From: Nocardioides solisilvae
GTDB taxonomy: Bacteria; Actinomycetota; Actinomycetes; Propionibacteriales; Nocardioidaceae
NCBI RefSeq assembly: GCF_003194625.1
Contig: NZ_QHKX01000002.1
Coordinates: 1-64,000, forward strand
Direction: 5' to 3'
DNA length: 64,000 bases
Each line of letters begins with the position of its first letter. Positions within the stretch are counted from its first letter, which is position 1. A program made the position numbers and the translations under genes. The notes beneath the pieces were generated by a model. That model ran no database searches and had not been told where the DNA came from. It saw only the letters and a program-made list of their open reading frames with translations. Shown in pieces: positions 52,907-63,377 of the stretch.

Positions 52907-52907
<1 letters not shown>
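51840..52907 (-). CDS. pyrD: dihydroorotate dehydrogenase, class 2 (quinone-dependent)
   Basis: 355 aa. N-terminal amphipathic helices for membrane association (about 1-45), then the barrel with [30 protein letters not shown], catalytic Ser in [14 protein letters not shown], and [19 protein letters not shown]. This is the enzyme expected to do the oxidation step. ATG overlaps the carB stop. Confidence 0.96.
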
Positions 52908-56211
<3,304 letters not shown>

Positions 56212-56212
<1 letters not shown>

Positions 56213-57339
56213 CAGGCCCTCGCCTCCATCAGCTCGCAGAAACGGTCGAAGAGGTACGCCGCGTCGTGCGGTCCGGCCGCGGCCTCCGGGTGGTACTGGA
56301 CGGAGAAGCTCTTGAGGGCGCCGTCGGCGGTCCGCAGCTCGAGCCCCTCGACGACGTCGTCGTTGAGGCAGACGTGCGAGACCGAGGCGACGCCGTACGG
56401 GGTCTCGGTGCTCCCCTCGAGCGGGGCGTCCACGGCGAAGCCGTGGTTGTGGGCGGTCACCTCCACCTTGCCGGTGGTGCGGTCCATCACGGGCTGGTTG
56501 ATGCCGCGGTGGCCGTACTTGAGCTTGTAGGTGCCGAAGCCGAGGGCCCGGCCGAAGAGCTGGTTGCCGAAGCAGATGCCGAAGTAGGGCAGGTCCTGGG
56601 CCAGCGCGCCCCGGAGCAGCTCGACCTGGGCGGTCGTCGCGGCCGGGTCGCCGGGGCCGTTGGAGAAGAACAGGCCGTCGGGGGCCACCGCGTCGACCTC
56701 CTCCAGCGTGGAGGTGGCGGGGAGGACGTGGACCTCGATGCCCCGCTCGCTCATCATGCGGGGGGTGTTGGACTTGATGCCGAGGTCGAGGGCCGCGACG
56801 GTGAACCGCTTCTCCCCCACCGCCGGGACGACGTACGGCTCCGCCGTCGTCACCGCGTCGCTCAGCTGGGCACCGGCCATCCCGGCGCTCTCGCGCACCC
56901 GCCCCAGCAGCGCCTCGGGGTCGGTCTCGGTCGTGGAGATCCCCACCCGCATCGCACCGCGCTCGCGCAGGTGCCGGGTCAGGGCCCGGGTGTCCACCCC
57001 GGAGATCCCGACGACGCCCTGCTCGCGCAGGTCGTCGTCCAGGGTCCGGGTGCTGCGCCAGCTCGACGGCACCCGTGCGGGGTCGCGCACGACGTAGCCG
57101 GCCACCCAGATCCGACGGGACTCGGTGTCCTCGTCGTTCATGCCGGTGTTGCCCACGTGCGGGGCCGTCATCACGACGACCTGGCGGTGGTAGCTGGGAT
57201 CGGTCAGCGTCTCCTGGTAGCCGGACATGCCGGTCGAGAAGACGATCTCGCCGAAGGTCTCGCCCTCGGCACCGAAGGAGTCACCGCGAAAGGTGCGCCC
57301 GTCCTCGAGGACCATGAGCGCAGGGGCAGGCAGAGCCAT
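56212..57339 (-). CDS. carA: carbamoyl-phosphate synthase small subunit
   Basis: 375 aa glutamine amidotransferase subunit. N-terminal domain with [18 protein letters not shown]; class I GATase with nucleophile Cys in [11 protein letters not shown] and the His/Glu in [17 protein letters not shown] before ATG 57339; the Shine-Dalgarno is part of a PyrR-type leader element (57345-57385). Confidence 0.97.
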
Positions 57340-57344
57340 GCCGC

Positions 57345-57385
57345 ACCTCCTTCTCCGCCTCACAGGACGGACCGTTAAAGGATGT
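57345..57385 (-). promoter_or_regulatory. PyrR-type leader element before carA
   Basis: 41 nt on the minus strand from ACATCCTTTAACG through CCGTCCTGTGAGGCGG to the ribosome-binding site AAGGAGGT. The loop fits the PyrR-binding core TCCNGNGAGG. It matches the pyrR element at 38 of 41 positions. In mycobacteria the homologous element gives PyrR/UMP-dependent translational repression. Confidence 0.85.
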
Positions 57386-57399
57386 TCGAACCGACGCCG

Positions 57400-57405
57400 A
57401 CCCTA
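57400..57405 (-). promoter_or_regulatory. carAB operon -10 box
   Basis: Minus-strand TAGGGT, 14 nt before the leader element; the pyrR unit has the same hexamer at nearly the same distance. Confidence 0.5.
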
Positions 57406-57447
57406 CCAGCGGAACCTCGCGCTCCCGCGACCGGCACCGTCCCGTGG

Positions 57448-59148
<1,701 letters not shown>

Positions 59149-59154
59149 GGGAGG

Positions 59155-59213
59155 TCCTGACGGCGAGGTCGACGACTCGCGGGGCGGGCGCCACGGGCGC
59201 GAGTCAGGTCAGG
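59155..59213 (-). promoter_or_regulatory. putative attenuator / Shine-Dalgarno-sequestering hairpins before the ABC-F gene
   Basis: Perfect 8-bp stem GACTCGCG (59174-59181) with CGCGAGTC (59198-59205). Alternatively GTCAGG next to the ABC-F ribosome-binding site (59156-59161) can pair with either of two overlapping CCTGAC copies (59203-59208, 59208-59213), the first-read of which overlaps the stop codon of the leader ORF. Confidence 0.6.
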
Positions 59214-59226
59214 CGTGCATCCACAT
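59209..59226 (-). CDS. five-codon leader peptide MWMHA
   Basis: ATG TGG ATG CAC GCC TGA on the minus strand, 61 nt before the ABC-F start. It begins within a few nt of the predicted transcription start (TACCGT at 59237-59242), so it would be the first thing translated. Position and length match leader peptides of antibiotic-induced ABC-F and erm genes. Whether it is translated is not proven. Confidence 0.6.
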   Translation of the reverse strand: MWMHA

Positions 59227-59236
59227 GATGCCGACC

Positions 59237-59242
59237 ACGGTA
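59237..59242 (-). promoter_or_regulatory. ABC-F promoter -10 box
   Basis: Minus-strand TACCGT, 10 nt before the leader ORF. An AAAA run lies about 31 bp further upstream, just beyond where a -35 would be; WhiB7-dependent promoters have an A/T run there, but this is weak evidence. Confidence 0.45.
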
Positions 59243-59374
59243 GGCCCTGACCCGCCACTCCGCACCTCCTTTTCCCCCTGGCCGGCTCGGGCCCCTCCGG
59301 GTCGTCGTCCCCCCGACTCGCCACGGGACGAGGCCGTGCCCGAGAAGGCAGGACGGCTGGTTTGATCCGGTGTC

Positions 59375-60484
59375 ATGCCACCGCCACCGTCCCGAGGTCC
59401 CGTGGAGGCGACCACAGCCGTCAGCCGGTGGCTGGCGACCGCGCTCGCCGGGCTGCTCGCCCTCCTCCTCGCGGCGTGCCAGCCGGCACCGCCGGCACCC
59501 TCCGGTGCGGACGGCACGGCGGACGGCACGGCGGACGGCGCGGAGGACGGCGTGGGGACCGGTGGAGCCCGCGGGACGTCGCCGGGCCGCTGCACCGGCG
59601 TCGGTCCCGCCCGGGTGCAGGGGTCGCCCCCGTCCCCCGACCTCCCGTTGCGCGACTACCCCACTGCCTCCGCGGTCTGCGAGGCGTGGTGGATCCCGGC
59701 GATGGCCGGCACGTTCGTCCCCCAGGGCCTCGAGGTGGACGGCGACCTCGCCTACGTCTCCGGGTACCGCGTCGCCGCGCTCGGCCGTCGCGCCTGCCAG
59801 GTGGTGGTGCTGGACCTCGACACCGGGCGTCAGGTGGCGTTCGTGCGGCGCTTCGAGGCCCCGATCTACGGCGCGGACCCCACGTACTGCCGCCACGGCG
59901 GAGGCAACGAGCTCACCGACGAGGGGCTGTGGATCGCCGGCGGCCAGGTCCTGTGGCTGCTGGATCCCGCGCGCGTCCGCGACGGCAGGCCGCCGGTGCT
60001 CCGGGCCTGGAGGCTGGAGGACGGGCTCATGGGCTCCACCCTGGCCATCCACGACGGAGCCCTGGTGATCGGCACGTACCGGGCCGGCGGCCGGGGCCGG
60101 TGGTTCGGCTACGACCTGGACGAGGTGCTGGCTCGCGGCGTCTCGGCGCTGGGGCTGGACGCCACCACGGGGGGCCAGGTGACCCCCGGACGCCGAGGAC
60201 GGGTCGCCACCCGGCTCCAGGGGCTGAGCCTCACCCCGCGGGGGCGGTGGGAGGTCGGCTCGCGGATCTCGTGCGGGCTGCTCCACCCCCCGGGTCCGGC
60301 GGGCCCGGTGGACTTCGTCCCGGGGGCCGAGGACCTCGAGGTCGTGGGGCCGGACGTGTGGACCGTCAGCGAAGCCAGTGCGGCGCCGTACGCGCACCTC
60401 GGGGACGACGCCCGGGTGCCCGGGCTGCTCCGCCTGGACCGACGCGCGCTGCTGGCTGGCACCGCGACGTGCGACCTCGGCTAG
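59375..60484 (+). CDS. lipoprotein of unknown function
   Basis: 369 aa. Lipoprotein signal with lipobox LAAC (Cys35), then a low-complexity ADGTADGTADG linker (about 44-70), then a domain with four or more conserved-looking Cys and blades such as QGLEVDGDLAYVSGYR, YGADPTYCRHGGGNELTDEGLWIAG and LWLLDPARVRDG that suggest a beta-propeller-like outer-surface domain. I do not recognise a family. Divergent from the ABC-F gene across 226 bp; TTTGAT (59361-59366) is a -10 candidate. Confidence 0.7.
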   Translation: MPPPPSRGPVEATTAVSRWLATALAGLLALLLAACQPAPPAPSGADGTADGTADGAEDGVGTGGARGTSPGRCTGVGPARVQGSPPSPDLPLRDYPTASAVCEAWWIPAMAGTFVPQGLEVDGDLAYVSGYRVAALGRRACQVVVLDLDTGRQVAFVRRFEAPIYGADPTYCRHGGGNELTDEGLWIAGGQVLWLLDPARVRDGRPPVLRAWRLEDGLMGSTLAIHDGALVIGTYRAGGRGRWFGYDLDEVLARGVSALGLDATTGGQVTPGRRGRVATRLQGLSLTPRGRWEVGSRISCGLLHPPGPAGPVDFVPGAEDLEVVGPDVWTVSEASAAPYAHLGDDARVPGLLRLDRRALLAGTATCDLG

Positions 60485-60508
60485 CGGCCGGCCGCCACCA
60501 CGGCGCCC

Positions 60509-61792
60509 CTAGCCTGCGTCGGCCAGCGCCCCGTCGCGCACCGTGACCCGGCCGCCGTACACGGTGTGCACGACGCGCGACGCGAGCTCCCGGCCGTGCC
60601 AGGGGTTGTTCTGCGACAGGGACGCCGAGGCGGCGCGGTCGACGGCCACCGTCGCGTCGGGGTCCACCAGGACGACGTGCCCGGGGGAACCCACCTCCAG
60701 CGCGCGGCCCTGCGTCTCCAGGCCCGCGATCCGGGCCGGGTTCTGCGACATCACGCGGGCCACCTGGGTCCACGACATCTCGGGCAGGGCGGTCCGGACG
60801 ACCCCGAGGGCGGTCTCCAGGCCGAGCATCCCGAACGCCGCGTCGACGAACGCGTGCTCCTTGTCGTGGCGGGCGTGAGGAGCGTGGTCGGTGGCCACCG
60901 CGTCGATCGTCCCGTCCAGCAGCGCGGCGCGCAGCGCCTCGACGTCCTCGGCGGGACGCAGCGGCGGGTTGACCTTGTACGTCGGGTCGTAGCCGGCCAG
61001 CAGGTCGGTGGTGAGGAGCAGGTGGTGCGGCGTGACCTCGGCGGTGACCGCGATCCCCTGCGCCTTGGCCCAGCGGAGGACCTCGACCGAGCCGGCGGTC
61101 GAGACGTGGGCGACGTGGACGCGGGAACCGGTGTGCCGGGCCAGCATCACGTCACGCGCCACGACCACCTCCTCCGCGATCCCGGGCCACCCGGGCAGCC
61201 CCAGCCGGCCGGAGAGCTCGCCCTCGTGGCAGCAGGCGCTCGGGCCCGCGAGCGTGGGGTCCTGGGAGTGCTGCGACACGACGCCGCCGAACGCCTTGAC
61301 GTACTCCAGCGCCCGACGCATCACCCGCGCGTCGTGGACGCAGCGACCGTCGTCGGAGAAGACCCGGACGCGGGCGCGCGAGCGGGCCATCAGCCCCAGC
61401 TCGGCGAGCTCCTCGCCGGCCAGGCCGCGGGTGACCGCGCCCACCGGCTGCACGTCGACGAGCCCGGCCTCGCGGCCCAGCTCCCAGACGCGGACGGCGG
61501 CCTCGGCGGTGTCGGTGACCGGGGAGGTGTTCGCCATCGCCAGGACGGCGGTGAAGCCGCCCAGCGCGGCGGCCCGCGAGCCGGTCAGGACGGTCTCCGC
61601 GTCCTCCCGCCCCGGCTCGCGCAGGTGGGTGTGCAGGTCGACGAGGCCCGGCAGCGCGACCAGCCCGTCGGCGTCGAGCACCTCGTGGCCGGAGGCGTCG
61701 ACCTCGCCCACGCGGGTGAGGGTCCCGTCCTCCACGAGCAGGTCGGCGGGGGTCTCGCCCAGCAGCGACGCCCCCCTGATCACGAGCGCCAT
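60509..61792 (-). CDS. pyrC: dihydroorotase
   Basis: 427 aa, amidohydrolase fold (class I). Metal His pair DLHTHLREPG, SQHSQDP, HVAHVSTAGSVE, VTPHHLLL and the catalytic Asp in ATDHAPHARHDK are intact. Third step of pyrimidine synthesis. ATG overlaps the pyrB stop. Confidence 0.97.
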   Translation of the reverse strand: MALVIRGASLLGETPADLLVEDGTLTRVGEVDASGHEVLDADGLVALPGLVDLHTHLREPGREDAETVLTGSRAAALGGFTAVLAMANTSPVTDTAEAAVRVWELGREAGLVDVQPVGAVTRGLAGEELAELGLMARSRARVRVFSDDGRCVHDARVMRRALEYVKAFGGVVSQHSQDPTLAGPSACCHEGELSGRLGLPGWPGIAEEVVVARDVMLARHTGSRVHVAHVSTAGSVEVLRWAKAQGIAVTAEVTPHHLLLTTDLLAGYDPTYKVNPPLRPAEDVEALRAALLDGTIDAVATDHAPHARHDKEHAFVDAAFGMLGLETALGVVRTALPEMSWTQVARVMSQNPARIAGLETQGRALEVGSPGHVVLVDPDATVAVDRAASASLSQNNPWHGRELASRVVHTVYGGRVTVRDGALADAG

Positions 61793-62718
61793 CAGGCTTC
61801 CTCTCCGGCGAGCAGGTGGTAGAGCACGGACATGCGGACGGCGAGCCCGCTGGAGACCTGCTCCAGCACCGCCGACTGGGCGGCGTCCGCGGCGTCCGCG
61901 GCGATCTCGAGCCCGCGGTTCATCGGCCCGGGGTGGCAGATCGGGACGTCGGGGCGCAGCAGGCGCAGCCGGTCCCGGGTGAGGCCGTAGCCCACCGTGT
62001 ACTCCCGCGCGCTCGGGAAGAACGCCCCGCTCATCCGTTCGCGCTGGACGCGCAGCATCATCACGGCGTCGGCGTGGGGCAGCACGGCGTCGAGGTCGTA
62101 GGAGGTCTCGAACCCGGCGGCCGCCGACCAGGCCGCGACGCCCGCGGGCATCAGGGTGGGCGGCGCGACGACCGTGACCCGGGCGCCGAGCTTCGTCAGG
62201 CAGAGCACGTTGGAGCGGAAGACCCGGCTGTGGGTGAGGTCGCCGACGATCGCGACGTGGCGGCCCTCGAGCGAGCCGAGGCGGCGCTGCAGCGTGTAGG
62301 CGTCGAGCAGCGCCTGGGTGGGGTGCTCGTGGGTGCCGTCGCCGGCGTTGACGACCGCCGCGTCGACCCACTCGCTGACCTGGCGGGCCGACCCGCTGGC
62401 GGGGTGCCGGACCACCAGGCCGTCGACGCCCATGGCGCAGACGGTGAGCACGGTGTCGCGCAGGCTCTCGCCCTTCGAGGCGCTCGAGCCCTTGGCGCTG
62501 ATGTTGATCACGTCGGCCGAGAGCCACTTCCCGGCGATCTCGAACGACGAGCGCGTGCGGGTGGAGTCCTCGAAGAACATGTTGACCACGGTCCGGCCGC
62601 GCAGGGCGGGCAGCTTCTTGACGTCGCGGTGCTGGACGTCGTGCATCTCGGCGGCGGTCTCGAAGATCGCCTCGACCTGGTCGACCGACAGGTCGTCGAC
62701 GGAGAGCAGGTGCCTCAC
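61792..62718 (-). CDS. pyrB: aspartate carbamoyltransferase catalytic subunit
   Basis: 308 aa. Carbamoyl-phosphate loop [29 protein letters not shown], and [11 protein letters not shown]. No pyrI regulatory gene follows, as usual in actinobacteria. GTG at 62718 overlaps the pyrR stop. Confidence 0.97.
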
Positions 62719-63254
62719 GAGATCGTCACCTCGTCGGTCCCGTCGACCTCGGCCAGCCGGACGCTGACCCGCTCGGAGCGGGCGCTCGGGAGGTTCTTGC
62801 CGACGTGGTCGGCGCGGATCGGCAGCTCGCGGTGGCCCCGGTCGACCAGCACGGCGAGCCGCACCGCGGCGGGCCGCCCGAGGTCGGCCAGCGCGTCGAG
62901 GGCGGCGCGGATGGTGCGGCCCGAGAAGAGCACGTCGTCGACTAGCACGACGACCTTGCCGTCGATGCCGCCGGCCGGCAGCTGGGTCTTGTGGGCGCGC
63001 CTCGTCGGCTGGCTGCGGAGGTCGTCGCGGTACATCGTCACGTCGAGCTCGCCCACCGCGACCGGGACCCCCTCGACGCCGGCGATCCCGTCGGCGATCC
63101 GCCGGGCGAGGGGCACGCCGCGGGTGTGCAGCCCGAGGAGGATGAGGTCGGTCGCGCCCTTGTTGCGCTCGAGGATCTCGTGGGAGATGCGGGTCATCGC
63201 GCGGGCGATGTCCCGGCCGTCGAGGACGGTGCGTCCTGGTGCGGTGGCAGGCAT
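62715..63254 (-). CDS. pyrR: pyrimidine operon regulator PyrR / uracil phosphoribosyltransferase
   Basis: 179 aa. PRTase fold with [12 protein letters not shown] and the PRPP loop [19 protein letters not shown]. Binds pyr mRNA leaders when UMP is high; many also have UPRT activity. ATG at 63254; the GGAGG belongs to the leader element and is 12 nt away, longer than usual. First gene of pyrR-pyrB-pyrC. Confidence 0.96.
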
Positions 63255-63265
63255 CGGTGGCCTGG

Positions 63266-63306
63266 ACCTCCTTCTCCGCCTCACGGGACGGCTCGTTAAA
63301 GGATGT
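63266..63306 (-). promoter_or_regulatory. PyrR-type leader element before pyrR
   Basis: 41-nt minus-strand element, ACATCCTTTAACG ... CCGTCCCGTGAGGCGG ... AAGGAGGT, 38/41 identical to the carA copy. Holds the PyrR-binding core and the ribosome-binding site, so bound PyrR would block initiation. Confidence 0.85.
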
Positions 63307-63318
63307 CGTGCGGCCGCG

Positions 63319-63324
63319 ACCCTA
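63319..63324 (-). promoter_or_regulatory. pyrRBC -10 box
   Basis: Minus-strand TAGGGT, 12 nt before the leader element. Confidence 0.5.
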
Positions 63325-63377
63325 CCAGCGTCGCGCCCCACCCCCGTCGGGCGACGGCGGACGCGGGCGCACGGGCG

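Follow-up and report, generated by a model that had tools for sequence, protein, structure and literature searches.

The window, by which we mean the whole 64,000-nucleotide stretch of DNA that was analysed, carries on its reverse strand a gene for an ABC-F ATPase of 566 amino acids (57448–59148, with a GTG start codon at 59148), and it is this gene and the short leader upstream of it that concern us here. Pfam places two ABC_tran stretches on the one chain, and the solved structures closest to the protein are EttA and other ABC-F chains. The best NCBIfam model is that of the TlrC/CarA/OleB/SrmB group (NF000171), which the protein matches at 362.4 bits against a cut-off of 800, and it reaches 278.5 bits with the ribosomal protection ABC-F model, where the cut-off is 380; since both curated cut-offs are missed, we file the protein as ARE-like and not as an ARE member. 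ABC-F proteins shield ribosomes from lincosamides, streptogramins and pleuromutilins, and the present gene may have a resistance function too. As read from the list of open reading frames, the gene is enclosed by a pyrimidine-biosynthesis cluster (carB and carA, then pyrC, pyrB and pyrR; 52907–63341, reverse strand), and on the opposite strand it adjoins a putative lipoprotein gene (59375–60484) that is without a Pfam match.

Reading the reverse strand, on which all the leader features lie, one meets a leader ORF of five codons and a TGA stop, ATGTGGATGCACGCCTGA (59209–59226, encoding MWMHA), and we have compared 109 such leaders. The −10 element TACCGT (59237–59242) fits the TANNNT form conserved in leaders and ends 10 nt 5′ of the leader ATG, so that a near-leaderless mRNA, as the first-pass annotation of this DNA had supposed, is plausible, with its start expected near 59229–59230. 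The motif CCTGAC then occurs twice (59213–59208 and 59208–59203, one C being common to both copies), and its complement GTCAGG (59161–59156) overlaps the likely ribosome-binding site of the GTG start. Between them sits a hairpin of 8 bp, which we call P1, with a 5′ arm GACTCGCG (59198–59205) and a 3′ arm CGCGAGTC (59174–59181), both assigned by covariation and the former also by a covariance-model match; the apical part (59182–59197) is the window's form of a GYCCGNGGC...GCCCG motif recognised from column conservation in 54 leaders. The second structure, the putative sequestering stem P2, has as its 5′ strand leader positions +8 to +20 (59207–59219, including the first CCTGAC; assigned from duplex energy and a swap test) and as its predicted 3′ strand the region 59144–59162, in which GTCAGG lies over the ribosome-binding site and CGTGC over the GTG start codon.

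The letters are thus just as the first-pass annotation gave them, from the five-codon ORF and the paired motifs to the 8-bp hairpin, and the arrangement it drew from them is not. It had taken the pairings to be mutually exclusive, with the hairpin competing against sequestration of the ribosome-binding site; the stem of GTCAGG with the first CCTGAC in fact encloses P1, and the predicted minimum-energy fold of the window contains P1 and P2 together. It is only pairing with the second CCTGAC that would cost P1 its outer pairs. We have accordingly dropped the idea that P1 competes with P2; P1 is nested in that stem and is itself covarying and strongly conserved.

In addition, very little could be concluded from the window alone, which does no better than chance, so that the significance of the element comes only from comparison with relatives. 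The fold of the window is no more stable than those of dinucleotide shuffles (z +0.59), and its best duplex between leader and ABC-F start region, at −15.6 kcal/mol, is equalled or beaten by 395 of 2000 shuffles; the start regions of six of 56 other species pair with the window's leader at least as well. A covariance model does match the window at 59226–59143 with 62.8 bits, a score to be read in the knowledge that the window itself was among the 54 sequences used for training. In the window's P1 one conserved inner pair is missing, a C standing where G is expected, and because of this deviation the P1 pattern finds no match in the window's own genome.

Orthologues of the ABC-F protein, taken at E 1e-100, are present in 70 of the 196 genomes of the genus and in none of the other 126, and in a sample of the order they were found in 53 of 293 genomes and 12 of 37 genera. 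A short ORF lies 5′ of the ABC-F gene at all 68 genus orthologues for which upstream DNA was read (two incomplete matches among the 70 fall outside this set), and likewise at 29 of 29 family loci (L002–L030, with L109 for L024), six loci being common to the two sets. The upstream regions were reduced to 109 leaders; outside this set stand L126, L127, L131, L136 and L138, which have no such leader, L128, which has no P1, the other ABC-F copies L110–L112, the partial locus L024 (L109 serving instead), the weak match L031 and the repeats L121–L125, and the sample does not take in G199, G259 or weaker and partial family matches such as G062. To choose the leader ORF, a score was used that rewards a −10 element at a suitable place and AAG, TGG, CTG or GAG as second codon; for the ABC-F start the rule was to take the first in-frame ATG lying 30 nt or more downstream, or failing that GTG, and this gives wrong starts in some cases (L030 and L075). 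As the picking script favours such ORFs, the presence of an ORF alone proves little, and it is the spacing, the covariation and the model search that carry the argument.

Both the length and the peptide of the leader vary. Five codons are found in 69 leaders, three in 39 and four in one, and the 109 leaders encode 36 different peptides, with MWMHA occurring once. The idea in the first-pass annotation that a ribosome stalls on MWMHA therefore falls, the more so as the leader of one genus begins AUG-UGA, and we have discarded MWMHA as an arrest peptide. The stop codon is TGA in 108 of 109 leaders and TAG in the remaining one; in the leaders that we read, the TGA is often followed by C, which may reflect either P2 pairing or a slow-termination context. 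What stays constant is how far P1 lies from the start codon: counted from that codon's first base, the distance is 20–23 nt in 95 of 109 leaders, comprising 28 of the 39 with three codons and 67 of the 69 with five. The pattern used to measure it had no match in 11 leaders and returned 15 nt in three.

Outside the family, the order search yielded 14 orthologue loci, of which five are without such a leader, and the covariance model matched six of the 13 that were scanned. A further scan of named genomes used patterns common to ABC-F proteins, and among the 19 of 80 loci for which the upstream DNA was viewed, leaders of the same type were seen in Catellatospora (L140) and Nesterenkonia (L142). 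In one genus (g28; L126, L127 and L131) the orthologue follows close behind an ABC-ATPase-like gene, without the leader element, as if the two were co-regulated.

In the window a weak −35 element, GTGCGG (59260–59265), stands 17 bp before the −10, and 3 bp upstream of it is the AT-rich hexamer GAAAAG (59269–59274), which resembles a WhiB7/WblC box and was recognised with the help of the leader logo. The WblC promoters of Streptomyces coelicolor are described as GAAAWY 3 bp before a TKGMNN −35 element, then a spacer of 16–19 bp and TANNNT, and their transcripts as beginning mostly 7–8 bp after the −10 (PMC7157823). The window's box agrees with GAAAWY at five of six letters, and its whole arrangement, GAAAAG-3-GTGCGG-17-TACCGT, deviates from that form at two letters, the sixth in the box and the first in the −35 (a mismatch to TKGMNN). 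The logo of the 95 of 109 leaders with a suitable −10 fits the WblC form better, with A at frequencies of 0.60, 0.88 and 0.78 at positions −31 to −29 relative to the −10, this A-rich triplet preceding a GTTG-like −35. In these same 95 leaders TANNNT lies at −17 to −11 before the leader start codon, the gap from hexamer to start codon being 9–10 nt in 78 and 6–8 nt in 17, and applying the 7–8 bp rule (PMC7157823) to this spacing leads one to expect the mRNA to begin 0–4 nt before the ORF, and 3–4 nt before it in the window. The window's genome also encodes a WhiB7-like protein, a WhiB protein with an RGRP AT-hook at its end. The form of the leader promoters is thus close to that of WhiB7/WblC promoters, and control by WhiB7 is possible.

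The evidence for P2 is that leaders pair better, on average, with the start region of their own ABC-F gene than with those of other species. In a swap test, the first 22 nt of the leader were set against the ABC-F start region (−22 to +6) at 57 non-redundant loci, taken from a duplex set of 108 leaders (one with a start-to-start distance above 125 nt was left out); own pairs averaged −14.88 kcal/mol and permuted pairs −11.41 kcal/mol (z −9.8, 0 of 2000 permutations). When coding sequence or sequence 5′ of the ORF served as control, z lay between −1.7 and 0.8, while reversed-strand controls gave −2.7 and −2.2, a small residue that is probably due to shared composition; two further controls, at +120 and +150, are void, as some sequences did not reach that far. 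The test was repeated with 26 leaders that had not been used for training (z −5.6, 0 of 5000), which include two with no ABC-F gene (L244 and L249) and omit a short locus (L246), and on 13 non-redundant new leaders (z −3.9, 1 of 5000). Within one genus (g92) the ABC-F gene starts with GUG at L233 and with AUG at L256; opposite the changed base the leader has C in the former and U in the latter, so that the pair has been kept. The first-pass annotation had looked to related genomes as the check on its idea, and there both the position of the leader ORF and the pairing with the ABC-F start region are indeed conserved, the latter co-varying.

A ribosome parked on the leader would, by computation, make the ABC-F start easier to open. 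When the leader was blocked up to +16, the computed opening cost, averaged over 53 loci (L011, L030, L075 and L140 being left out), fell from 10.22 to 6.96 kcal/mol, and with a shuffled footprint it was 7.80 kcal/mol. The predicted gain exceeds 1 kcal in 39 of the 53 and is at most 1 kcal in the other 14; in the window it is small, from 7.63 to 6.72 kcal/mol.

P1 is likewise upheld by comparison. In an alignment of 54 leaders (A2, from which L011, L139 and L140 were left out), 94.4% of the cells of the 12 proposed pairs are standard, seven pairs have changed on both sides (4.2 in shuffles), and there are 63 double-change cells where shuffles give 18.3. The covariation score is 0.312 against 0.131 when shuffled and at most 0.087 when slid, and it reaches 0.374 on 73 sequences, in an alignment that was itself fitted to the structure. 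The variation is in the lower stem, while the upper part (the GYC bulge, CG/CG, a one-base bulge and GGC/GCC) is nearly constant: a bulge G is present in 53 of 54 leaders, and each of the five pairs is identical in at least 48 of 54. The hairpin pattern found 15 sites in 120 family genomes, and the one lying away from the gene, inside apparent coding sequence (L064), was set aside as chance. Rfam 15 gave no match up to E 5 in 58900–59500 and none up to E 1 in the loci of six relatives.

How widely is the element distributed? The covariance models used here hold no P2 pairs, although they do hold the sequence of both P2 strands, and the first of them, made from A2, contained none of the sequences newly found with it. 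Run over 296 genomes of the class at E 0.01, this first model matched 35, once in each, in 11 of 114 genera. Thirty class loci were examined, five of them from the window's genus, and 23 of the other 25 lie directly 5′ of an ABC-F gene, the remaining two belonging to a single genus (g104, see below); four class matches without a locus are outside the checked set. A second model, run over 396 genomes of the phylum under strict filters, matched three, namely the window and two outside the class, both preceding ABC-F genes, and under these filters it missed G553, a match of the first model. With a twelfth member of genus g92 as a further ABC-F case, 26 of 28 checked model matches outside the window's genus precede ABC-F genes. 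Judged by these searches, the element is spread patchily through several actinobacterial families.

All 12 genomes of genus g92 carry the element, and in every one the leader begins ATGTGA, which can be read as AUG-UGA or, in another frame that overlaps it, as a GUG start followed by a two-codon ORF in all (four codons in one leader). In Escherichia coli, AUGUGA sites have the same AUG-UGA overlapping a GUG start, and translation there is reported to start in either frame; unlike the sites in g92, these are starts of coding genes with termination–reinitiation and not leaders (PMC9841429). A variant of another kind is seen in genus g104, where the element (1501–1593 in L244, 1501–1585 in L249) precedes not an ABC-F gene but a conserved basic ORF of 58 codons (MRNVFPY...YRRH), some 100 nt downstream of it in L244 and 130 nt in L249. 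Pfam assigns this 58-amino-acid product to no family, with one weak match below the cut-off that we take as chance, and in a search of 292 class genomes the ORF was well matched only in the two g104 genomes; it was weakly matched once elsewhere, in a region where reading showed no convincing ORF. At L245 (1–1600) two ABC-F genes stand in tandem, and the stop codon of the first apparently overlaps the leader start of the second (GTGTGA).

What, then, might the element do? We think it likely that it is a translational attenuator of the ABC-F gene, worked by a ribosome arrested at the start codon of the leader and placed behind a WhiB7-like promoter. From that promoter would come an mRNA starting 3–4 nt before the mini-ORF. 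With no drug present, ribosomes would cross the mini-ORF at once and leave, and the freed first ~22 nt would pair, as P2, with the ABC-F ribosome-binding site and start codon around a folded P1. A peptidyl-transferase drug of the lincosamide, streptogramin A or pleuromutilin type, by blocking formation of the first peptide bonds, would instead leave the ribosome on the start codon, where it would cover about +1 to +16, prevent P2 and free the ABC-F start region. That the arrest would be at the start codon is argued by the fact that ORF length and peptide vary while the distance from start codon to P1 is constant. When a ribosomal subunit occupies a uORF start codon, its toeprint falls 16 nt past the A (PMC9226507); by that measure an arrested ribosome would stop a few nucleotides before P1, and most of the 5′ strand of P2 would be covered by it. 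Sequence comparison shows the element itself, its conservation and fixed spacing, the covariation of P1, the species-specific complementarity of P2 and the association with ABC-F genes, to which the class of drug, the position of arrest and the direction of the effect are added as proposals.

A different way to use the same parts would be transcription attenuation, in which P1, or P1 with P2, stops RNA polymerase by an intrinsic or Rho-dependent route unless a stalled ribosome prevents it. This is how related actinobacterial ABC-F leaders, are5sc and lmrC of Streptomyces, are described as working (PMC8546547, PMC12421871), and we consider it improbable here. There are no terminator-like sites in 58000–62000, and a T run (five of eight) follows P1 in only one of 108 leaders and in none of 24 class-wide leaders (a count that omits the short locus L246), which makes an intrinsic terminator unlikely and led us to reject one in the leader. 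Furthermore, the partner with which the leader co-varies is the ABC-F start region itself.

Next to be weighed is the thought that the bulged part of P1 binds a protein, be it the ABC-F protein, a ribosomal protein or another factor, and that the mini-ORF only tunes the outcome. In its favour, the upper hairpin is nearly invariant while the lower stem changes, yet such a site leaves the constant distance from the start codon, the conserved stop codon and the co-varying P2 unexplained, and no Rfam family matches, so we hold this to be a poor prospect. Still less credible to us is peptide-specific arrest on MWMHA, or the sensing of scarce tryptophan or another aminoacyl-tRNA: codon 2 is indeed non-random (TGG in 52, AAG in 25 and CTG in 19 of 109 leaders, codons that the picking script itself favoured), but so many peptides of several lengths, and a genus with AUG-UGA, are hard to square with it. 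That the leader is conserved and constitutive, its ORF being translated to aid ribosome loading with no regulatory role, we scarcely believe, since a species-specific pairing with the gene's own start region would then have been selected for no purpose.

Returning to start-codon arrest, there are several known systems with which it can be compared. Two ABC-F genes of S. coelicolor, are5sc and tiaA (ARE5; uORFs MLV and MVGDDDISG), are like the present case in kind and include a three-codon uORF, and arrest at the start codon by lincosamide, streptogramin A and pleuromutilin drugs has been shown for them by toeprinting, tiaA being seemingly controlled at translation (PMC12421871). Their 5′UTRs measure 232 and 194 nt, their uORFs have ribosome-binding sites, and terminator/antiterminator folds are predicted in them (PMC12421871), whereas the leader here is about 80 nt long, has its ORF 3–4 nt from where the mRNA is expected to begin and shows no terminator. 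The cplR, vmlR and vmlR2 genes of Clostridioides and Bacillus (uORFs MRI, MIN and MK[L/Q]) likewise have uORFs of three codons and folds that sequester the Shine-Dalgarno sequence (PMC10201436, PMC9226507). Translational attenuation has been shown for cplR, and uORFs of this type are thought to be stalled with little regard to context (PMC10201436); indeed, the MIN uORF of vmlR can be replaced by variants from other Bacilli (PMC9226507). Unlike the element here, the vmlR uORF has a Shine-Dalgarno sequence in front of it, and the vmlR and cplR leaders have intrinsic terminators (PMC9226507, PMC10201436). For the actinobacterial Ard1, the cplR paper reports too few homologues for uORF prediction (PMC10201436).

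Other parallels come from actinobacteria themselves. The leaderless polycysteine ORFs of mycobacteria, known as cysteine attenuators, combine a leaderless uORF with translation attenuation, as proposed here, and are described as responding to cysteine (PMC13236596). The whiB7/wblC leader offers a uORF-mediated response to ribosome drugs, as proposed here, and differs in being long, in having a Rho-independent terminator and in controlling a transcription factor (PMC10727445).

As start-codon arrest on short, context-poor uORFs has already been described, the kind of switch is known. No report of this leader element was found in the open literature that was searched or in Rfam, and as far as these searches show, several of its traits appear to be new: it is near-leaderless, its start codon keeps a fixed distance from the hairpin, P1 is a conserved module, a start-stop version exists, and it occurs across several actinobacterial families. 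A bolder reading, to which we would give rather less than an even chance, is that the sensor may need no peptide and almost no ORF, being set by a ribosome at the 5′ end of the mRNA against a hairpin ~21 nt away, with AUG-UGA as the extreme in one genus; the bulged P1 might then be a new RNA module that stops the ribosome or is recognised in trans, and the whole might be spread broadly in actinobacteria. The element separates the contribution of the peptide from that of the position of the arrested ribosome, which are mixed in other leaders, and as a cassette of ~80 nt it would let start-codon arrest be tested directly, a natural start-stop version included.

Finally, a leader of another type was seen 5′ of other actinobacterial ABC-F genes (L110, L111, L146 and L148). 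These are GTG-started ORFs of seven codons, with a −10 hexamer that starts 12–13 nt upstream and with hydrophobic ends (MQYYFFI, MHYYFFI, MGSLIFL and MPQLLFL), and those of L110 and L111 lie 124 and 138 nt before the approximate start of the ABC-F match. Seven codons ending in this way are suggestive of a nascent-peptide sensor.
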